Assembly (NCBI RefSeq): GCF_003096995.1
Contig: NZ_QENU01000005.1
Coordinates: 1-64,000, forward strand
Length of the DNA stretch: 64,000 bases
DNA from: Alitibacter langaaensis DSM 22999
Lineage (GTDB): Bacteria > Pseudomonadota > Gammaproteobacteria > Enterobacterales > Pasteurellaceae
Reading direction: 5' to 3'
This document shows positions 7,137 to 24,545 of this stretch, piece after piece. Each line of letters starts with the position of its first letter. The stretch's first letter is position 1. Both the position numbers and the translations under genes were made by a program. The notes below the pieces were generated by a model, which saw only the letters and a list, made by a program, of their open reading frames with translations, had not been told where the DNA came from and made no database searches.

Positions 7137-7760
7137 TTAATAAGATTGCCATGCGTATTGGGCAAGGCTGAATGCAATGCCCCACATTACGAATCCAATC
7201 ATGAAATCCAGAACGCGCCATGTCATTGGGCGTTTGAATAACGGAATCAGCAAGCGTGCGCCATAGCCTAAGCTAAAGAACCATAAGGCAGAAGTGCAGA
7301 GTGCGCCAGCAAGAAAGAATATTTTTCTGTCTGCTGGAATTGTCCCTGCAATGCCACCGATAATCGCAAAACAGTCGAGATAAACGTGAGGGTTTAATAA
7401 GGTGATGGCTAAGGTTGCAAGCACCGCTTTCCATGCGGATTGTTTTGGCATTGCTTTATTGCTTAATGCGAGTGCAGAATTGCCTTGATAGGCGGAACGA
7501 AATGCGCGCGCGCCATACACCAATAAGAATAATGCGCCGACAATGGCAAGTGCCACTGTTGCCATTTGGCTTTTGCTAATCATGGATCCAAGCCCTAACA
7601 CGCCCATGGAAATCAATATAACATCGCATATAAAGCAAGTCAGAATCACAGGCAATATATTTTGTTTGAGCAACCCTTGTTTTAACACAAACGCATTTTG
7701 CGCACCGATAGCGATGATCAGCCCACCGCAAACAAGAAAACCTTGAAGAAAAAAGTCCAT
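7137..7760 (-). CDS. argO: LysE/ArgO-family amino-acid exporter
   Basis: 207-residue inner-membrane protein with five to six hydrophobic segments. The family signature GAQNAFVLKQG is near residues 19-29 and LNPHVYLD near 122-129; together they match ArgO (arginine exporter) better than the RhtB branch. Family knowledge: efflux of basic amino acids such as arginine or its toxic analogs. No ArgP-like regulator lies nearby, so regulation is not visible. Substrate assignment is by similarity only. Confidence 0.82.
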   Translation of the reverse strand: MDFFLQGFLVCGGLIIAIGAQNAFVLKQGLLKQNILPVILTCFICDVILISMGVLGLGSMISKSQMATVALAIVGALFLLVYGARAFRSAYQGNSALALSNKAMPKQSAWKAVLATLAITLLNPHVYLDCFAIIGGIAGTIPADRKIFFLAGALCTSALWFFSLGYGARLLIPLFKRPMTWRVLDFMIGFVMWGIAFSLAQYAWQSY

Positions 7761-13020: not shown

Positions 13021-13722
13021 TTACTGCAACAATTCAATTGTCGCATTGACATTCATTTTTAAGTGGGTGTTTCCACTTTCCAACTGCACTGGCTCTGCAG
13101 ATTTCGCGGATGACAACATTGCGCGTGATTCCAGCATATAATTTCCATATGTCGCTGGGCTATTTCCATAGGGCGGCAAATCCAAGTTGACAATTCGATA
13201 GCCTTTCGCCTTAAGTGCATTGGCGGTTAGCTCGGCTTTTTGGCTGAATTTTGCTAGTGCTGCTTGCGTCATTTCATCTTCCATTTTGGCTTGCGCAGCA
13301 GAAGAGAGTTTCGCTTGAATGTAATCAATCGAAAAGGTATTGGAAATCTCATCAATTAACTGAGATAGCGCAAAAAAGTCTTGGCTTTCTAATACCAAAT
13401 CTGCACGCTCTAACCAACCATTTTTAACACCTTTTTCATTATAACGAGCTGAAGTATGGCGATTATTTTGCTGAATTTTGACCGCACTTTGCCCTTTTAT
13501 TTTGCTGAGCGCCTGATTCAGTTTTTCTGACACTTTACTGTGTAGCGCCTTTAAATCCGAGCCTTCTTCTTGCACAAATAAGCGAACTTGCAGAATATCC
13601 ATCGGCACTTCTTTTTCCACTTCAACAGAAAAGCTCACTCGAGGGAGTTTAGCCTGTTCGTTGTCGTCCTGTGCGGAGGCGAAAGTCGGTAATGCCAATA
13701 AAACAAAAAGTAATTTTTTCAT
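13021..13722 (-). CDS. Periplasmic SIMPL-domain protein (DUF541, YggE-like)
   Basis: 233 residues with a clear Sec signal peptide (MKKLLFVLLALPTFASA, cleavage before QDD). The remainder matches the SIMPL/DUF541 family: the repeated KLNQALSKIKG-type N-terminal half and the AQAAL-like stretch AKMEDEMTQAALAKFSQKAELTANALK near residue 145. Family members such as E. coli YggE are linked to oxidative-stress resistance, but a biochemical activity is not established. Its start is 18 nt after the dgkA stop, so the two may be cotranscribed. Confidence 0.8.
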   Translation of the reverse strand: MKKLLFVLLALPTFASAQDDNEQAKLPRVSFSVEVEKEVPMDILQVRLFVQEEGSDLKALHSKVSEKLNQALSKIKGQSAVKIQQNNRHTSARYNEKGVKNGWLERADLVLESQDFFALSQLIDEISNTFSIDYIQAKLSSAAQAKMEDEMTQAALAKFSQKAELTANALKAKGYRIVNLDLPPYGNSPATYGNYMLESRAMLSSAKSAEPVQLESGNTHLKMNVNATIELLQ

Positions 13723-13739
13723 AGTTTTCCCTTAAATGA

Positions 13740-14099
13740 CTAGAAAAATAAAATGGCGCCCCAAACGATGACAAAATTCACTAAGGCAACAAACACGGCG
13801 GCGGAGCCTTGGTCTTTGGCGCGGCCTGACAGTTCGTGGCGTTCCGTGCCAATGCGGTCAATGGCGCATTCCACGGCGCTGTTGAGTAATTCCGCAATTA
13901 ATATAATCAGATAGGCAGCGAGCATTAATGCCAGCTCAATTTTGTCTTGTGCTAAGAAAAACGCAAGGGGCACCACGATGATGCCGCCAAGCAATTCGTG
14001 GCGAAATGCGGCTTCATTTTTAATGGCGCTGCGCAAGCCTTGCAGTGAATATTTGGTTGAATTAATTAAATGCGTTAAGCCTGTGGTTTTGTATTCCAT
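13740..14099 (-). CDS. dgkA: Diacylglycerol kinase
   Basis: Small inner-membrane kinase that recycles diacylglycerol to phosphatidic acid. The frame is open further upstream, but the start at 14099 has an AGGGAAT site and gives MEYKTTGLTHL, matching the family; product 119 residues. Three transmembrane helices follow an amphipathic N-terminus. The active-site stretch EAAFRHE and the signature ELLNSAVECAIDRI are intact. It lies between relA and the SIMPL gene on the same strand. Confidence 0.94.
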   Translation of the reverse strand: MEYKTTGLTHLINSTKYSLQGLRSAIKNEAAFRHELLGGIIVVPLAFFLAQDKIELALMLAAYLIILIAELLNSAVECAIDRIGTERHELSGRAKDQGSAAVFVALVNFVIVWGAILFF

Positions 14100-14164
14100 A
14101 GAATTCCCTAATATTGCGCCGCACATTGGCACTAGGCAAAAGTGCGGTCGATTTTTTGATAATT

Positions 14165-16384
14165 TTATAAACGTTTTACATCAATGACATCTTCTAACGA
14201 AGACAAACGCGTTAAGATTTTACTCAACATATCCACGTTATTTAGCTCAATTTCCAAATCTAGCGTAGCCAACTGGCGTTTGTTGTCTAAACGGCTGACA
14301 ACACCCGTTACACTGATTTTTTCATTGGCAAGTACGGTGGTAATATCACGCAATAAACCATTGCGGTCGCTGGCGAGCACACGAATCGTTACATGATATG
14401 AACCGTGCTGATCTTGTTCGCCCCAACTGGCTTCAACCACACGTTCGGGGTGATCAGCCGCCAGATCTGCAAGCTGTTCGCAATCGACACGGTGGATTGA
14501 AATACCGCGCCCTTGAGTTACATAGCCTGCGATTTTATCACCAGGCAATGGCTGACAGCAACGTGCCATACTATGCATCAGATTAGCCACGCCTTCAACC
14601 ACCACATAGCCTTGTTTTTCCACTTTTTGTTGGGCATAAATGGCGCTTTTTTGGGTGACGTGACGTAACACTTCTTCATCGGCTTCTTGCGCCGTTGGTT
14701 TTAACAATTTGCTTTGCAAGAAGTTGGCGAGTTGATTGAGTTTAATATCGCCGCTGCCAATGCCATTATAGAGATCGTCAACTTGTTTGAGATTATATCG
14801 TGGCAAGGCGATTGGTTCGATTTGTTTTAAGGTTAAACCAAGGCGATTGAGCTCAGCATCAAGTTGTTCTTTACCCAATGGGATATTTTTATCGCGATCC
14901 AGTTTTTTGAAAAATGCAGCAATTTTTGACCGCGCTTTTTGCGTATGGGTGAAGCCTAAATTCGGGTTCAGCCAGTCACGGCTTGGGTTTGGGTTCTTTT
15001 GGGTAATGATTTCTAGCTGATCGCCCATTTGCAGCTGATAAGTAAAAGGCACAATCCGATCTGCCACTTTGGCGCCAATGCAGCGATGCCCCACATCACT
15101 ATGAATGGCGTAGGCAAAATCCAATGGCGTTGAGCCTGTTGGCAAATCCACCACTTCGCCTTTTGGCGTGAACACATACACGCGGTCATCAAACACTTGG
15201 CTGCGCATTTCGTCCACCACTTCACTGCTGCTTGCCATATCATCTTGCCACGCTAATAGTTTACGCAGCCAAGAGATTTTTTCTTCATAAGCCGACATTG
15301 CGCCTGTGGTGCCTTCTTTGTATTTCCAGTGGGCGGCAACGCCAAGTTCGGCATCATCATGCATTTTTTGTGTGCGGATTTGTACTTCAATGGGCTTATC
15401 GCCTTTGCCTAAAACCACCGTGTGAATGGATTGATAGCCGTTCGGTTTCGGATTGGCAATATAATCATCAAATTCTTTCGGCAAATGTTGATAATGGGTG
15501 TGGATAATGCCTAGCGCGGTGTAACAATCTTGCAAATTAGGCACGAGCACACGCACGGCTCGCACGTCATATAAACCGCTGAAATCCAAATGCTTTTTCT
15601 GCATTTTTCGCCAAATGCTATAAATATGTTTCGGACGACCATAGATATTGGCATTGGTGATGCTTTCGCTTAATAAACCTGAAAGTTCGCTAACAAAATT
15701 TTGGATATATTGCTCACGGTCGAGGCGGCGTTCTTGCAATAATTTTGCGATTTTAAAGTATTCTTGTGGCTGCAGATTGCGGAAACAATAATCTTCTAGT
15801 TCCCATTTTAGCTGCCCAATACCCAAACGATTGGCTAATGGCGCATAAATATTTGAACATTCTTGCGCGGCTGAGATTTTCTCATTGTTAGAATAGCGTT
15901 TATCCGCATCACGCAAATAGGTAATGCGTTCGGCAAGTTTGATGATCATACAGCGGAAATCGTCCACCATTGCCAGCAACATACGGCGAACATTGTCGAT
16001 TTGTACATCGCTAGATTGCAAAGCATTTAGCTGGCGGATATTGTTCATCACCGTCACGCCTTTGATAAGTTTGCTGATTTTCGCGCCGAAATCTTCTTTA
16101 ATTTGCTCCGTATTGACGATTTTGGCATTGACGATAGGGAATAACATAGCGGCTAATAAGGTATCGCCGTCCATATTCAGGCTATGCAGGATTTCCACCA
16201 TTTCTACACCATCTCGCAGATACCAGTGGCTGTTGAGAAACAGTTGCTGCGCTTTTTCTTGGGCATAATGCCAAGCGTGCACCAGCTTTTGCTCAACCTC
16301 TGGGGCTAAATTTAATGATGCACACCATTTAGTTACCGCAAAATCTTTAGGATTTAACAGGTGAGAACCGCGAACAGCAACCAT
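14165..16384 (-). CDS. relA: (p)ppGpp synthetase RelA
   Basis: Ribosome-associated stringent-response enzyme that makes (p)ppGpp when uncharged tRNA enters the A site. 739 residues. The hydrolase domain is inactive: where SpoT has the HD metal motif this protein has FPIVNAK. The synthetase domain has NPKPNGYQSIHT and EVQIRTQKMHDDAE, the acidic form typical of monofunctional RelA. TGS domain (VYVFTPKGEV), the Cys-containing zinc-finger region (ARCCQPLPGD) and a C-terminal ACT domain follow. Start is 10 nt after the rlmD stop, with its ribosome site in that gap, so the two are coupled as in E. coli. Confidence 0.97.
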   Translation of the reverse strand: MVAVRGSHLLNPKDFAVTKWCASLNLAPEVEQKLVHAWHYAQEKAQQLFLNSHWYLRDGVEMVEILHSLNMDGDTLLAAMLFPIVNAKIVNTEQIKEDFGAKISKLIKGVTVMNNIRQLNALQSSDVQIDNVRRMLLAMVDDFRCMIIKLAERITYLRDADKRYSNNEKISAAQECSNIYAPLANRLGIGQLKWELEDYCFRNLQPQEYFKIAKLLQERRLDREQYIQNFVSELSGLLSESITNANIYGRPKHIYSIWRKMQKKHLDFSGLYDVRAVRVLVPNLQDCYTALGIIHTHYQHLPKEFDDYIANPKPNGYQSIHTVVLGKGDKPIEVQIRTQKMHDDAELGVAAHWKYKEGTTGAMSAYEEKISWLRKLLAWQDDMASSSEVVDEMRSQVFDDRVYVFTPKGEVVDLPTGSTPLDFAYAIHSDVGHRCIGAKVADRIVPFTYQLQMGDQLEIITQKNPNPSRDWLNPNLGFTHTQKARSKIAAFFKKLDRDKNIPLGKEQLDAELNRLGLTLKQIEPIALPRYNLKQVDDLYNGIGSGDIKLNQLANFLQSKLLKPTAQEADEEVLRHVTQKSAIYAQQKVEKQGYVVVEGVANLMHSMARCCQPLPGDKIAGYVTQGRGISIHRVDCEQLADLAADHPERVVEASWGEQDQHGSYHVTIRVLASDRNGLLRDITTVLANEKISVTGVVSRLDNKRQLATLDLEIELNNVDMLSKILTRLSSLEDVIDVKRL

Positions 16385-18617: not shown

Positions 18618-18633
18618 ATCGAAACGTTTCGAT
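18618..18633. promoter_or_regulatory. LacI/RbsR-type operator
   Basis: Perfect 16-bp palindrome ATCGAAACGTTTCGAT with the central CG of LacI-family operators. The core CGAAACGTTTCG is the known RbsR-type operator of enteric bacteria. It lies between the promoter and tctC, where a bound repressor would block transcription. The RbsR homolog encoded at the end of the same gene row (23544-24545) is the obvious ligand. Confidence 0.85.
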
Positions 18634-18675: not shown

Positions 18676-19629
18676 ATGAAAAAATCATTTGTGAAAACAT
18701 TAGTGGCAGCATCAGTCTTGTTCTCAACAGCAAGTATGGCAGCTTATCCTGAAAAGCCTATTACGATTATTGTGCCTTGGGGAGCTGGCGGTAATACAGA
18801 TACCATTGCACGTTTAGTAGCTAAAGGTTTACAAGAAGAATTGAAAACGAATGTGAATGTAATTAATCGCACGGGCGGTAGTGGTGTCGTGGGTCATAAT
18901 GCAATTAAAGTAGCAAAACCAGATGGTTATACATTAGGAGTGGTAACGGTTGAGGTTGCTCTAATGCATCATCAAAAAATGACAGATTTAAGTTATAAAG
19001 ACTACACGCCAATTGTACGTTTAGGTGTTGTACCTGGTGGAGTACAAGTGGCGAAAGATTCACCTTATAAAGATATTAATGAGTTATTAGCTGCAATAAA
19101 AGCAAATCCAGGTAAATTAAAAGCTTCTGGTAGTGGTTTAAATTCTATTTGGCACTTGAATTTATTGGGAATTTTAAAAAGTGCAGGATTACCTGAAGAT
19201 AGCGTGAAGTTTGTACCATCACAAGGTGCAAGTGCGGCGCAACAAGAACTTGTTTCAGGAGGAATTGATTTTGTTACCTCTTCTCCGGGGGAGGCTAAAA
19301 GTATGGCTGACGCAGGAATGGTGCGCCATTTAGCGATTACCACTCCAACCAAAAGTGAGCTTTATGCTGATATTCCAGTTTATCAAGAAGTTACTGGCAA
19401 TAAATGGACGCTAAATGGTTGGAATGTGTTAACTGCACCAAAAGGTTTGCCAGATGATGTGAAAGAGACTTTAGTGAAAGCGATGGAAAAAGTTTATGCC
19501 ACTGGGGAACTACAAAAATTTGCTAATAAACAAGGATTTGAAGCAAGTGCATTATATGGTTCTGAATTAGATAAATTTATGGACGATGAAGATAAAAAAT
19601 TCGGTGATTTACTTTCAACTGAAAAATAA
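18676..19629 (+). CDS. tctC: TTT-family periplasmic binding protein (Bug/TctC)
   Basis: 317-residue extracytoplasmic receptor of a tripartite tricarboxylate transporter. Signal peptide MKKSFVKTLVAASVLFSTASMA precedes AYPEKPITIIVPWGAGGNTDT, the conserved Bug N-terminus whose glycine-rich loop contacts a carboxylate. Family members bind citrate, other carboxylates, aromatic acids or nicotinate, so the ligand cannot be told from sequence. Ribosome site GAGGTG. First gene of a six-gene forward row under a CRP site and RbsR-type operator; a hairpin follows its stop. Confidence 0.93.
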   Translation: MKKSFVKTLVAASVLFSTASMAAYPEKPITIIVPWGAGGNTDTIARLVAKGLQEELKTNVNVINRTGGSGVVGHNAIKVAKPDGYTLGVVTVEVALMHHQKMTDLSYKDYTPIVRLGVVPGGVQVAKDSPYKDINELLAAIKANPGKLKASGSGLNSIWHLNLLGILKSAGLPEDSVKFVPSQGASAAQQELVSGGIDFVTSSPGEAKSMADAGMVRHLAITTPTKSELYADIPVYQEVTGNKWTLNGWNVLTAPKGLPDDVKETLVKAMEKVYATGELQKFANKQGFEASALYGSELDKFMDDEDKKFGDLLSTEK

Positions 19630-19643
19630 TAAATGTAAGGAGA

Positions 19644-19670
19644 ATGGCTCTCGAAAGAGAGCTATTTTAA
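19644..19670 (+). terminator. Hairpin and nine-codon frame between tctC and tctB
   Basis: An 8-bp stem with GAAA loop (19645-19652 with 19657-19664) followed by TTTT can act as a partial terminator after tctC. The only good Shine-Dalgarno sequence (AAGGAG, 19637-19642) lies on the tctC side, 32 nt before the tctB ATG. A short frame ATG-GCT...TTT-TAA (19644-19670) covers the hairpin and stops 4 nt before tctB, which would allow re-initiation. Confidence 0.6.
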
Positions 19671-19674
19671 TTTT

Positions 19675-20121
19675 ATGATTCGATTATTCACCCCTATTTT
19701 TCTTTTTATCTTTGGACTGATAGTTTCTGTTTATAGCTATCAAGCTTATGGCGATTTTTCTGAATATGGTGCTGCTTTTTATCCCACCGTTATCGGCGTA
19801 ATACTCGCCTTTTTTGGTTTTATTGATTTTATTATGGAGATTAAATTAAAGGGAAAATATGTTTTCCAAAGTTTTGATTTAATCCAAGATGGTAAAATTA
19901 TCTTATTAATAACCGCAGTTATAGGGTTTTATATTTTAACTGTAGATTATCTTGGCTTTGTATTAACAACTACCTTGATTCTTTGTTTCTTAACTTTACC
20001 ATTTATGGTTAAGAATAAAATTCTTATTGCAGTTTTATTATTTATTCTTGCCATTGGTATTTATTTGTTATTTGCCAAATTGTTATTAGTTGGGCTTCCT
20101 GGCGGTATTTTATTTGAATAG
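19675..20121 (+). CDS. tctB: TTT-family small membrane subunit
   Basis: 148 residues with four predicted transmembrane segments (starting FTPIFLFIFGLIVSVYS, then YPTVIGVILAFFGFIDFI, and two near the C-terminus), the usual TctB fold. It partners with TctA in the inner membrane. The start has no adjacent ribosome site; initiation may depend on the upstream hairpin or on re-initiation. tctA starts 7 nt after its stop. Confidence 0.88.
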   Translation: MIRLFTPIFLFIFGLIVSVYSYQAYGDFSEYGAAFYPTVIGVILAFFGFIDFIMEIKLKGKYVFQSFDLIQDGKIILLITAVIGFYILTVDYLGFVLTTTLILCFLTLPFMVKNKILIAVLLFILAIGIYLLFAKLLLVGLPGGILFE

Positions 20122-20128
20122 GTGACAT

Positions 20129-21634
20129 ATGGAAATTTTAACAAATGCATTTTCTTATATTGATTTAAATTCAATTATCGCTATTTTTGCAGCTGGTTTA
20201 TTTGGCTTATTTGTGGGCGCAATTCCAGGATTAACCGCTACAATGTCAGTTGCCTTAATGGTTCCTTTTACATTTTTTATGGATCCTATCCCTGCACTAG
20301 CACTAATGATTTCTGTCGGTGCATCATCAATTTATGCAGGAGATATTCCTGGTGCCTTATTGAGAATTCCTGGTACACCAGCATCTGCCGCCTATGTAGA
20401 TGACAGCTATCTTTTAGTGAAACAGGGTAAGGTAAATCGTGTTCTTGGTTTAGGATTAACTAGTTCTGTTATTGGGGGCGTGATTGGCACTATTGTTTTA
20501 GCTTTAGCTGCACCATCGCTTGCTAAATTTGCATTAAAGTTTAGTTCTTTTGAATATATGTGGCTTTCACTGTTAGGTTTAAGTTGCGCTACTTTAATTG
20601 CAGGTAAGTTTATTACTAAAAGTTTATTGACTTTATTATTTGGTATTTTAATTTCAACAATTGGCTTTGATGAGTTTACAGGTCAAGCTCGCTTTACTTT
20701 TGATATTGTTTCTTTATATGAAGGAGTCAGTTTTATTCCAGCAATGATAGGGCTCTTTGCTATCTCTGGTGCGATCAACTATTACGCGAATCGCTATAAA
20801 TCAGAGGATAATGTAGATGCGGCGGAATTAACACAAACAAGCGGTTCTTTAAATTTATTTAAAGGTTTAGCCAAACCGTTGAATAAACGCAAAGGCAGTA
20901 TTTTACGTAGTAGTTTGATTGGTACTTTAATTGGAGCATTACCAGGCGCGGGAGCAGATATTGCAGCTTGGATTTCTTATGCAATATCCAAAAAAACATC
21001 AAAAAATCCTGAACTTTATGGCAAAGGATCTGAAGACGCTATTATTGATGCGTCCAGTAGTAATAATGCTAGCCTTGCTGGAAGTTGGATTCCTTCATTA
21101 GTATTTGGTATTCCTGGTGACTCAGCAGCAGCAATTATTATCGGTGTGTTGTATATGAAAGATATGCAACCTGGTCCATCATTATTTATGTTCCAGCCTG
21201 ATAAACTTTATGCGGTGTTTATTCTATTCTTAATTGCAAATTTAGCTTTAATTCCATTGGCATTAATTGTGGTGAATTTTTTGAAAAAAATCATCCAAAT
21301 TAATAAATATATCCTTTATCCAATCGTAATTATCTTTAGTATGGTTGGCGCATTTGCTATTAATAATTCACCAGAAGCGATTGTTGTAATGTTAATTATG
21401 GGGATCATTGGTTATTTCTTACAAAAAAATCATTACCCAATTTCGCCAATTATATTAGGTATGATTTTAGGTCCAATGCTTGAGCGTAATTTACTTGCAT
21501 CCTTAACGAAATCTGACGGCAATTTAATTGCTTTCATAGAACGTCCTGTTTCTGCAGTATTAGCTTGTTGTTTCTTACTTGTTGTTGTGTTGCAAGTTAG
21601 AGGCATTATTAAAAACTTTAACGAGAAAAATTAA
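20129..21634 (+). CDS. tctA: TTT-family large membrane subunit
   Basis: 501-residue permease with about 12 hydrophobic segments. Family signatures are seen: GAIPGLTATMSVALM near residue 30, and the repeated half LIGALPGAGADIAAWISYA near 270 with FGIPGDSAAAIIIGV after it. These paired GxxPGxxA motifs are typical for TctA and probably form the substrate path, driven by ion gradients. Length and order TctC-B-A are normal. The DNA is clearly more A/T-rich than the flanking housekeeping genes. Confidence 0.94.
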   Translation: MEILTNAFSYIDLNSIIAIFAAGLFGLFVGAIPGLTATMSVALMVPFTFFMDPIPALALMISVGASSIYAGDIPGALLRIPGTPASAAYVDDSYLLVKQGKVNRVLGLGLTSSVIGGVIGTIVLALAAPSLAKFALKFSSFEYMWLSLLGLSCATLIAGKFITKSLLTLLFGILISTIGFDEFTGQARFTFDIVSLYEGVSFIPAMIGLFAISGAINYYANRYKSEDNVDAAELTQTSGSLNLFKGLAKPLNKRKGSILRSSLIGTLIGALPGAGADIAAWISYAISKKTSKNPELYGKGSEDAIIDASSSNNASLAGSWIPSLVFGIPGDSAAAIIIGVLYMKDMQPGPSLFMFQPDKLYAVFILFLIANLALIPLALIVVNFLKKIIQINKYILYPIVIIFSMVGAFAINNSPEAIVVMLIMGIIGYFLQKNHYPISPIILGMILGPMLERNLLASLTKSDGNLIAFIERPVSAVLACCFLLVVVLQVRGIIKNFNEKN

Positions 21635-21653
21635 ATTAGATTTGGAGAAAACT

Positions 21654-22577
21654 ATGAGTATTCAAGGCATTATTCCTGTGATGTTGACCCCTTTCACAAA
21701 AGATAATGAAGTCGATTATGATGGGTTAAGAAGATTAACGGATTGGTATATTGATAACGGATCAGATGCATTATTTGCTGCTTGTCAATCAAGTGAGATC
21801 TTATTTCTTAGTTTAGAAGAACGCGTAAAAATTACGAAAACTGTGATTGAACAAACAAAAGGGCGTATTCCTGTAGTTTCATCGGGTCATGTTAGTGATA
21901 CGTTTGAAATACAGGTAGAAGAATTGACTGCAATTTACAATACAGGTGCTGATGCAGTGATTTTAATTACTAACCGTCTTGATCCCAATAATGAGGGTAC
22001 GGCAGTAATGAAAGCAAATTTTGAAAAATTATTGACCGCACTTCCAAAGGATATCACCTTAGGTTTATATGAATGTCCTGTGCCATATCGCCGTTTATTA
22101 ACCGATGAGGAAATCAGTTATTTTGCAAGCTTTGAAAATATGGTGGTATTAAAAGATGTATCGTGCGATCTAGAAACGGTTAAGCGACGTGTTGCATTAA
22201 CTAAAAACAGTAATCTTAAAATTGTCAATGCTAACGCAGCGATTGCTTTTGAAGCAATGAAAGCTGGTTCTGAAGGTTTCTCTGGCGTATTTAATAATAT
22301 TCACCCAGATCTGTATGCATATATTTATAAACATAAAGATTCCGATGAGCCAATGATACAAGAATTAGTACATTTTTTAGCGGTGAGTGGTGCGGCCGAA
22401 AGTTTTGGATATCCAAACATTGCGAAATTAATGCACGTTAAAATTGGCACCTTTGAGAATTATAATTCTCGAGTAATTAAAGATGATATTAAAGTTAAAT
22501 ATTGGGCCGTTGAAGAATTGCTTGATCATATTATGCAAGGTTCAGATCGTTTCCGTAAAAAGCTAAATCTTCGTTAA
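21654..22577 (+). CDS. DapA/NanA-superfamily aldolase with altered carboxylate loop
   Basis: 307-residue class I aldolase/lyase. An upstream open frame overlaps tctA, but the start at 21654 follows a GGAG site and gives MSIQGIIPVMLTPF, the superfamily N-terminus. The Schiff-base lysine is in VVLKDVSCD and the catalytic tyrosine in YECPVPY. The usual GxTGE keto-acid carboxylate loop is replaced by CQSSE (about residues 43-47), so it is neither standard DapA nor NanA. Family knowledge suggests cleavage or condensation of a 2-keto acid; the substrate is probably what the adjacent TTT system imports. It contains the one exact USS of this locus (near 22035). Confidence 0.82.
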   Translation: MSIQGIIPVMLTPFTKDNEVDYDGLRRLTDWYIDNGSDALFAACQSSEILFLSLEERVKITKTVIEQTKGRIPVVSSGHVSDTFEIQVEELTAIYNTGADAVILITNRLDPNNEGTAVMKANFEKLLTALPKDITLGLYECPVPYRRLLTDEEISYFASFENMVVLKDVSCDLETVKRRVALTKNSNLKIVNANAAIAFEAMKAGSEGFSGVFNNIHPDLYAYIYKHKDSDEPMIQELVHFLAVSGAAESFGYPNIAKLMHVKIGTFENYNSRVIKDDIKVKYWAVEELLDHIMQGSDRFRKKLNLR

Positions 22578-22607: not shown

Positions 22608-23540
22608 GTGAATAAACTAACAGTTCTTGGCAGTATTAATGCAGATCATGTGATTTCAGTTCCCTATTTTGCCAAACCAGGGGAAACCTTGACAGGTTCA
22701 AATTATCATATCGCTTATGGCGGTAAAGGTGCTAATCAAGCAGTAGCTGCTGCTCGTTTATGTAACAAATCACAAATGATTGTCAGTTTTATTGGCTGTA
22801 TTGGAGAAGATGATACAGGCTTTGCAATGAAAAAATCCTTTGCTCAAGATGGTATTGATGTATCAGCTATCAAAGAGATAAAAAATGAAACAACAGGTAT
22901 TGCAATGATTCAAGTTGCTGATAGCGGAGAGAATAGTATTGTTATTTCTGCTGGAGCGAATGCTTGTTTAGATGATGCACAAGTAGATGAGTTTGCAGAA
23001 AAAATTACACAGGCAGATTATTTGTTAATGCAACTTGAAACACCATTACCTGCTTTGATTAGTGCAGCGAAATTGGCAAAAGCGAATGATACAAAGGTTG
23101 TATTAAATCCAGCACCAGCTTGTGAATTGCCAGATGAGCTATTAAGTAATTTGGATATAATTACACCCAATGAAACAGAAGCGGAGATTTTGACAGGTAT
23201 TGTGGTGACTGATGAACAAAGTGCGGCTAAATCTGCACAAGTTTTTCATCGTAAGGGCATCGAAACCGTGCTAATTACATTAGGCTCCAAGGGCGTTTAT
23301 GTTAGTGAAAAAGGTCATGGTGAAATTATAAAAGGCTTTCAAGTTCAGGCAGTGGATACGACTGCAGCTGGCGATACATTTAATGGCGCATTTTTAACTG
23401 CATTATTAGATGGTAAAAATATGCAAGAAGCCATTAGATTTGCTCATGCAGCAGCGGCAATTAGTGTGACACGGAAAGGCGCACAACCATCTATTCCGAC
23501 GCGAGATGAAACCATGGCATTTCTTAGTTCACAAGGTTAA
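22608..23540 (+). CDS. rbsK: Ribokinase
   Basis: 310-residue PfkB-family kinase that phosphorylates D-ribose to ribose-5-phosphate. It is very close to E. coli RbsK through its length: LGSINADHV at the N-terminus with the sugar-binding aspartate, GGKGANQAVAAA, NPAPACELPDELL, ITPNETEAE, and the catalytic DTTAAGDTFNGA. Start codon is GTG at 22608, with AGGAG 10 nt before it. No rbsDACB genes accompany it; the TTT module and aldolase stand in that place. Confidence 0.9.
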   Translation: MNKLTVLGSINADHVISVPYFAKPGETLTGSNYHIAYGGKGANQAVAAARLCNKSQMIVSFIGCIGEDDTGFAMKKSFAQDGIDVSAIKEIKNETTGIAMIQVADSGENSIVISAGANACLDDAQVDEFAEKITQADYLLMQLETPLPALISAAKLAKANDTKVVLNPAPACELPDELLSNLDIITPNETEAEILTGIVVTDEQSAAKSAQVFHRKGIETVLITLGSKGVYVSEKGHGEIIKGFQVQAVDTTAAGDTFNGAFLTALLDGKNMQEAIRFAHAAAAISVTRKGAQPSIPTRDETMAFLSSQG

Positions 23541-23543
23541 CTT

Positions 23544-24545
23544 ATGGCGACCATGAAGGATATTGCGCGTATTGCAAAAGTGTCAACATCCACAGTATCT
23601 CACGTGATTAATGGAACACGATTTGTGAGTGATGAAATTCGCGAGAAAGTGATGTCGGTGGTGCAAGAACTTAATTATCGTCCATCAGCACTGGCTCGTA
23701 GTTTTAAGCTACAGCAAACTAAAACCATTGGTATGCTCGTTACAGCAAGTAATAATCCTTTTTTTGCAGAAGTTGTTGCCGCCGTAGAGCATTATTGTGC
23801 GCAAAATGATTACAATCTCATTTTGTGTAATACTGATGGCGATTGCATGCGCTTAGAAAAAAGCTTACAAACTTTATTACAAAAACAAGTAGATGGACTT
23901 TTATTAATGTGTACGGAAACACATTTACAAGAACATGCAACTGTTCATCTTACTGTTCCAACCGTCATTATGGATTGGTGGCCCACAGAATTAAATGCGG
24001 ATAGAATTTTTGAAGATTCTGAACTTGGTGGTTATCTTGCAACGAAGTGTCTGATCCAACATGGACATCGTAAAATAGGGATTATCACTGGGAATTTACA
24101 AAAACCTCTTGCTTTAAATCGTCTTAATGGTTACAAGAAAGCCTTGTTAGAAGCACAAATTCCGCTGAATAAACATTGGATCGTAGAAAGCCAATTTGAT
24201 TTTCAAGGTGGTGTGGTTGGCATGGATAAGTTATTGCAGCAAAATGAATTGCCAACAGCAGTTTTTGCTTGTAGTGATACTATTGCACTGGGAATTTATC
24301 AAACTGCATGGCGTTATAATTTGCGTATTCCGCAAGATATATCTGTTATTGGCTACGATGATATCAACCTTTCGCAGTATCTTGCCCCCCCGCTGGCAAC
24401 GATTCATCAACCCAAGGTTGAACTTGGTAAAAGAGCGGTAGAAATGTTATTAGAGCGTATTAAAAGTCCAGAACGGAAAAATAAAACAGTCATTCTTCAA
24501 CCTAACCTTATTGTACGTCCATCAGTTGCGCCCCCTATAAAATAA
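23544..24545 (+). CDS. rbsR: LacI-family repressor RbsR
   Basis: 333 residues. N-terminal helix-turn-helix [22 protein letters not shown] is nearly that of RbsR, followed by the hinge helix ([11 protein letters not shown]) and a periplasmic-binding-like ligand domain ([24 protein letters not shown]). E. coli RbsR responds to D-ribose. It starts 3 nt after rbsK, as in rbs operons. The palindrome at 18618-18633 is its likely operator, giving autoregulation of the whole row. A changed effector cannot be excluded. Confidence 0.9.

Follow-up and report, generated by a model that had tools for sequence, protein, structure and literature searches.

The gene at positions 21654-22577 (forward strand) of the window, by which we mean the whole stretch of 64,000 nucleotides from Alitibacter langaaensis DSM 22999 that was analysed, is, judged by its sequence, a member of a real and distinct subfamily within a known superfamily, the DHDPS/NAL aldolases, in which the usual carboxylate-binding loop is replaced by the motif CQSSE. 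From the family alignment and the genomic context, we propose that it encodes a class I pyruvate-type aldolase for an imported C8 ulosonic acid, most likely one that cleaves KDO (3-deoxy-D-manno-octulosonate, a sugar acid found in the cell walls of bacteria and plants) to pyruvate and D-arabinose, an assignment that is coherent and to which we give slightly better than an even chance.

The CQSSE loop and the family that carries it

The open reading frame encodes 307 amino acids, begins with ATG and is preceded by a ribosome-binding site (GGAG, 21644-21647). In a Pfam profile search it matches PF00701 (DHDPS) at 91.5 bits, with a cut-off of 22.1, over residues 3-228, and its placement in the superfamily is founded on this profile and on the catalytic residues, the GxxGE-type carboxylate-binding loop being missing. 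The Schiff-base lysine (Lys167 in VVLKD, codon at 22152-22154) and the proton-relay tyrosine (Tyr139 in YECP, codon at 22068-22070) are in register with those of DapA and NanA, and residues 44-48 (21783-21797) read CQSSE where E. coli DapA has GTTGE, NanA has GSTGE and YagE has GSGGE. Both glycines and the first Ser/Thr of the loop are swapped for C, S and Q, and its second hydroxyl is retained as serine. The alignment thus upholds the initial annotation, which described CQSSE in place of a GxTGE loop, changed at the glycines, with the Schiff-base lysine and catalytic tyrosine kept. Ser46, Ser47, Glu48, Lys167 and Tyr139 show no variation in a ten-member family alignment. In the active site, Ser46 would retain a hydroxyl near Tyr139, with Glu48 kept, and Gln45 may stand in for the carboxylate-binding Ser/Thr of NanA and DapA, Ser47 taking the place of the glycine. 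An AlphaFold2 model of the protein, built from two sequences only, has a mean pLDDT of 45.2, too low to be used for a judgement of the TIM-barrel fold.

All 70 family members that we compared (from 69 loci) carry [CA]QSSE, with CQSSE in 65 and AQSSE in 5, although these members are neither random nor independent because the genome regions (12 and 40) were hand-picked from match lists. An origin of the loop in a one-off mutation or a sequencing error is ruled out by this recurrence, and on comparison of the sequences the loop is a stable family trait and not the product of chance. Sorted by motif, the members comprise subfamily A (n = 54, LKDVSC type, including the window) and subfamily B (n = 16, KDTCC type). 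A phylogeny of the superfamily, one of the checks suggested with the initial annotation, was inferred with FastTree and recovers A as a clade (support 0.89) and A and B together as a single clade (0.93) separate from DapA, NanA and YagE, in agreement with the new subfamily that the annotation had predicted; subfamily B is not a clade under the rooting used.

Of the named relatives that have the gene, Actinobacillus sp. GY-402 of the Pasteurellaceae is the closest (88% identity), and a genome of the window's own genus (G004) also contains an 88% match to the aldolase. In the window's family, 7 of 140 genomes (the window genome counted) contain a relative. The G250 family, at a guess probably Enterobacteriaceae, has relatives in 41 of 295 genomes, the G287 family, by a similar guess probably Burkholderiaceae, in 8 of 295, and the G316 family in 1 of 29. 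Phylum-wide the count is 8 of 398 genomes, the window's own included, and class-wide it is 1 of 369, which is the window's own. Relatives were further detected in 48 plasmid records at E 1e-40 (32-57% identity), of which 17 were opened and two loci, L054 (35% identical) and L055 (32%), were excluded from the 70 members. The plasmid collection holds no near match to the operon of the window, and the aldolase of the B locus L041 has none in the E. coli genomes. Among viral contigs, P0001 gave no pattern match, A3 gave 14 pattern matches and no relative, and A4 gave only one DapA-like partial locus.

Remoter relatives carry CLSSE in Spirosoma and SLSSE in Haladaptatus. At L055 (4648-8915), the haloarchaeal SLSSE relative comes directly after a gene annotated as a family 78 glycoside hydrolase; rhamnose-KDO pairs occur in pectin RG-II. 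A B-type relative at G1022:C1:4072984-4073757 contains four stop codons (one TGA, one TAG and two TAA) and resembles a pseudogene. The 834-kb record of L050 (CP054241.1) is labelled as a plasmid of E. coli; with polB, araBAD, thiBPQ and sgrR it looks more like part of an enterobacterial chromosome.

Operon of the window and neighbourhoods of its relatives

Six genes on one strand, with gaps of 45, 7, 19, 30 and 3 bases between them, apparently form one operon, in which the aldolase gene comes fourth. Upstream of the aldolase gene on the forward strand lie genes for a TctC-type periplasmic binding protein (18676-19629; PF03401, 130.1 bits), a TctB-type small membrane subunit (19675-20121; PF07331, 53.2 bits) and a TctA-type large membrane subunit (20129-21634; PF01970, 437.3 bits). 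Downstream are a ribokinase-like PfkB kinase, the proposed kinase of the released pentose (22608-23540, forward; 60% identical to E. coli RbsK), which scores above the cut-off of the ribokinase equivalog NF008353 (490 versus 341 bits), and a LacI-family regulator closest to RbsR (23544-24545, forward; 52% identical to E. coli RbsR), which at 441.2 bits falls under the cut-off of 531 for NF007743.

A perfect 14-bp palindrome, TCGAAACGTTTCGA (18619-18632), is a candidate operator of the LacI-type regulator; it lies upstream of tctC and has one exact match in the window. Its bare presence carries little weight, given that at two mismatches or fewer at least one match occurs in 26 of 100 shuffles. 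The exact palindrome is found upstream of tctC at all five loci with a close LacI homolog (65-100%; the window, L003, L036, L114 and L116) and at none of the three scanned Pasteurellaceae loci without that homolog (L035, L037, L115). Between tctC and tctB, a 12-pair stem-loop with a T-rich tail (19641-19668) could reduce downstream expression compared with that of the binding protein; the region contains 6 terminator-like sites, near the expectation from shuffled sequence (mean 3.9).

In the window genome (1.99 Mb, 29 contigs) we found neither RbsD nor a close RbsB, the best match to the latter being 28% identical, which argues against a role of the kinase in a ribose operon of the E. coli type, and a ribose operon was rejected on these grounds. 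KdsD is present (413.1 bits, cut-off 203.7), so that D-arabinose 5-phosphate could be converted to ribulose 5-phosphate. From the sequences, their conservation, the gene order and the presence of KdsD, we infer each enzymatic and regulatory step of the following pathway. The C8 acid would be imported by TctABC and then split by the aldolase, the ribokinase-like enzyme would phosphorylate the pentose to D-arabinose 5-phosphate, the housekeeping KdsD would isomerise the latter to ribulose 5-phosphate, and control of the operon would fall to the RbsR-like LacI repressor acting at the upstream palindrome. In other genomes, a FucI-type isomerase would turn D-arabinose into D-ribulose, which an FGGY kinase would phosphorylate to ribulose 5-phosphate; a sialidase-like hydrolase would release KDO from a glycoside. 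That this is a KDO aldolase within a KDO uptake operon we regard as evenly balanced or slightly favoured.

The neighbourhoods of the two subfamilies point to two sets of pentose enzymes. Of the 54 A members, 41 have a ribokinase-like gene on their own strand at a distance of no more than 5 kb, as against none of the 16 B members; a TctA gene and a YhcH/NanQ-family gene (E. coli NanQ is annotated as N-acetylneuraminate anomerase) are found within 6 kb of 13 and 11 A members, respectively. For B members, FucI or a FucI-like protein is encoded within 8 kb in 15 of 16 cases, and there is an FGGY kinase nearby in 12, a sialidase-like protein in 14 and TctA in 10. FucI-type genes are near two A members, one of which (L133) has it merely via an adjoining B cluster, and among the 13 A members without a ribokinase nearby only L115 has FucI. 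Ribokinase, FucI and FGGY kinase were all absent from 20 control loci (18 DapA-type, every one with GTTGE, and 2 NanA-like, to which P0001 gives no match at E 1e-3), chosen from a match list, mostly of Pasteurellaceae and their relatives, and not genome-matched to the members. By our own criterion, these counts of FucI-type and ribokinase-like genes amount to a genomic tie to D-arabinose-converting enzymes. Both NanA-like controls have sialidase-like genes (26% identical) and one also has YhcH, as expected at sialic acid loci. In the vicinity of the 16 B members we found no homolog of fuculose-phosphate aldolase (FucA); matches to this enzyme lie near two A loci, L050 and L120, that at L050 falling within an annotated araD.

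Downstream enzymes differ between loci with closely related aldolases. At L035 and L036 the aldolases share 80% and 77% identity with that of the window but the kinases only 34% and 65% with its kinase, suggesting that aldolase and kinase were not inherited as one pair. At L115 (genome G892), where the aldolase is also 80% identical, the gene order is DeoR-type regulator, FucI, sialidase-like, TctC, a 152-aa ORF, TctA, aldolase and FGGY kinase. The FucI of this cluster is well above its cut-off (1159.9 versus 850 bits) and 69% identical to that of E. coli, the ORF in the TctB position has no match to the TctB of the window, and the FGGY kinase is a weak match to XylB (114.7 bits versus a cut-off of 380). 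G892 also contains a cluster of the window type, with RbsK and LacI (L114). Downstream of the L115 cluster, on the opposite strand (13184-14832), another sialidase-like gene and one of the YhcH/NanQ family (115.8 bits against a cut-off of 160) probably constitute a separate sialic-acid-type cluster.

In subfamily B, the aldolase of L039 lies near a true FucI (1035.9 bits, cut-off 775), a sialidase-like protein, Tct genes and a FucU-like protein that scores under its cut-off (125.5 bits versus 141). At most B loci the isomerase has about 550 amino acids, and the Klebsiella copy matches the FucI C-terminal domain weakly (E 3.7e-5, below cut-off); no PDB match was obtained for this FucI-like protein with either a single sequence or a profile. 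The kinase of L041 is an FGGY pentulose kinase (TIGR01315, 549 bits, cut-off 408.7). The sialidase-like protein, without a PDB match as a single sequence, matches PDB sialidases at E 9e-9 and weaker as a five-sequence profile. On a Klebsiella plasmid, the gene at 6311-7957 of L052, annotated as a 'signal transduction protein', is a FucI-like isomerase according to a weak Pfam match and its context, and copies 78-81% identical to it stand near the B aldolases of L133 and L140-L149. L133 (genome G1149) carries an A-type and a B-type CQSSE aldolase at 7476 and 13866, about 6 kb apart, with a FucI-like gene between them.

Clusters on Rhizobiaceae plasmids (L004, L005, L059) contain genes for an FAH protein (that of L004 has no PDB match), an aldo/keto reductase, a shikimate-dehydrogenase-like protein and an isomerase/epimerase, and no pentose kinase; these could represent an oxidative D-arabinose route or the use of another substrate. 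Additionally, A and B occur together in 12 of the 41 positive genomes of the G250 family, as counted by percent identity. Given this coexistence, and the two A clusters with different downstream enzymes in G892, the substrates of individual clusters may differ.

Substrate, alternatives and implications

FucI accepts both L-fucose and D-arabinose, and a ribokinase-type enzyme requires an aldose with a terminal hydroxymethyl group, which L-fucose does not have. D-arabinose fits both enzymes and is thus the candidate for the common product of the two routes, and with D-arabinose and pyruvate as products the substrate would most likely be the C8 acid KDO. The neighbours as a whole (YhcH/NanQ, sialidase-like proteins, pentose kinases, FucI and carboxylate importers) resemble those of a sialic-acid-type lyase pathway, here with pyruvate and a pentose as the expected products.

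Excerpts of the literature are in keeping with these reactions. KDO aldolase is described as yielding D-arabinose and pyruvate, with a purification from 1966 cited (PMC4412817), and excerpts on E. coli NanA report that it cleaves KDO (PMC13220900) and those on NanA that it makes KDO from D-arabinose and pyruvate (PMC4016182); a title cited in PMC7899658 has the sialic acid importer NanT taking up KDO in E. coli. Our searches returned no sequence for EC 4.1.2.23, and among open-licence PMC titles and abstract openings we found neither a gene assignment for KDO aldolase nor an account of the CQSSE family.

Whether the pentose is D-arabinose or D-ribose bears on subfamily A in particular, where the same aldolase and operon logic might serve a C8 stereoisomer that releases D-ribose, the kinase then being a plain ribokinase. 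Beyond exceeding the ribokinase cut-off and being paired with an RbsR-like regulator, the kinase of the window keeps the ribose-site residues of the E. coli enzyme (N14, D16, N46, A98, I100, I110, E143, D255), its lid included. Of the 41 associated kinases in the alignment, 40 have Ala98 in the lid (in L117 the corresponding stretch fails to align), and these kinases accordingly look ribose-like; lid residues offer no sign of D-arabinose use among the 41, and sequence gives no preference for D-arabinose over D-ribose. In PMC9604405, E. coli ribokinase is poor on D-arabinose (KM 470 mM), which Ala98 disfavours, and the A98G exchange raises kcat 15-fold with KM still at 310 mM; as KM falls to just this value, the Ala98 site is not decisive. 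Excerpts on other ribokinases report that the Thermus enzyme acts on D-arabinose at merely twice background (PMC5199209) and that D-arabinose 5-phosphate has been produced with the human enzyme (PMC11591822). Against release of D-ribose stands the pairing, at L115, of an 80% identical aldolase with a true FucI. The known aldose substrates of FucI include D-arabinose and not D-ribose, and we know of no natural ulosonic acid composed of pyruvate and D-ribose. We consider release of D-ribose rather improbable.

Other substrates would leave the pyruvate chemistry intact, namely a nonulosonic acid, the pectin C7 acid DHA or a keto-deoxy sugar acid, with the subfamilies differing in substrate. The joint occurrence of A and B in 12 of the 41 genomes, the sialidase-like neighbours and the Rhizobiaceae clusters described above all speak for such a substrate; however, pentose-handling enzymes recur in A and B by two unrelated routes, and in the specific case of sialic acid the NanA-type sugar block (described for LaNAL in excerpts of PMC4016182; NGYDE in E. 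coli NanA) reads NANAA or similar. We regard this possibility as unlikely. The superfamily also includes dehydratases and related Schiff-base enzymes, such as L-2-keto-3-deoxyarabonate dehydratase and KdgD, and a PDB search aligned the L-KDA dehydratases 3fkk and 7c0c with residues 4-81 and the loop segment, yet the KdgD model scores 45 bits against a cut-off of 373.95, and the nearby pentose kinases and isomerases fit the release of a free sugar, making a dehydratase in place of a retro-aldolase a doubtful prospect. The loss of both loop glycines and the first Ser/Thr could alternatively signal a donor other than pyruvate, in line with the initial annotation, which had predicted a substrate or leaving group of non-pyruvate type. 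This prediction found no support, as the lysine, the tyrosine and the loop Ser and Glu are retained (invariant in the ten-member alignment), and both the type of importer and the neighbouring genes agree with a 2-keto acid in a sialic-acid-type lyase pathway; we judge it very improbable. Finally, the best NCBIfam match of the protein is dapA, at 83.6 bits, but NCBIfam cut-offs and the separate clade exclude an ordinary DapA or NanA, and another gene of the genome matches PF00701 at 390.5 bits, leaving this identity with next to no credibility.

Extending KDO cleavage from the window to the family, we tentatively suggest, at somewhat less than an even chance, that the CQSSE subfamily provides the missing genes for KDO aldolase (EC 4.1.2.23) and that its clusters are dedicated KDO catabolic operons with interchangeable D-arabinose routes. 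These routes would be a ribokinase-type kinase (EC 2.7.1.54, which we take to be D-arabinokinase), a FucI-type isomerase with an FGGY kinase and, in Rhizobiaceae, perhaps an oxidative pathway. If so, animal- and plant-associated bacteria would feed on KDO of LPS, capsule or pectin via a nan-like pathway, and a gene would be assigned to EC 4.1.2.23, an orphan activity of a 2007 survey, and probably another to D-arabinokinase. According to excerpts of that survey, both EC 4.1.2.23 and EC 2.7.1.54 are among the validated orphan activities that it tabulates, with the rank 'difficult' (PMC1940265). Annotations as 'dihydrodipicolinate synthase family' would moreover be corrected, and a naturally specialised aldolase would be at hand for making KDO and its analogues.

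Comparison with known enzymes and pathways

With regard to characterised systems, the proposed reaction is identical to that of KDO aldolase, EC 4.1.2.23 (KDO to D-arabinose and pyruvate). DapA shares the family, the lysine and the tyrosine with the aldolase of the window but has the loop GTTGE, and the score of 83.6 bits is far from the cut-off of the DapA equivalog (206.15). L-2-keto-3-deoxyarabonate dehydratase (3fkk, 7c0c) belongs to the same superfamily and aligns over residues 4-81, although its likeness is confined to this N-terminal part. The closest parallel in organisation is NanA and the nan operon, which share with the window the superfamily, the catalytic Lys and Tyr and the combination of importer, lyase and kinase, with YhcH/NanQ and sialidase-type genes near some of the relatives. 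However, the aldolase is only about 26% identical to NanA and scores 49.6 of 281 and 42.6 of 382 bits against the NanA equivalogs; it has CQSSE for GSTGE and, in place of the sugar-binding Asp-Glu block NGYDE, the sequence NANAA, which suggests that the tail of the substrate would be gripped otherwise than that of sialic acid, and the operon of the window has a pentose kinase where nan has NanK/NanE.
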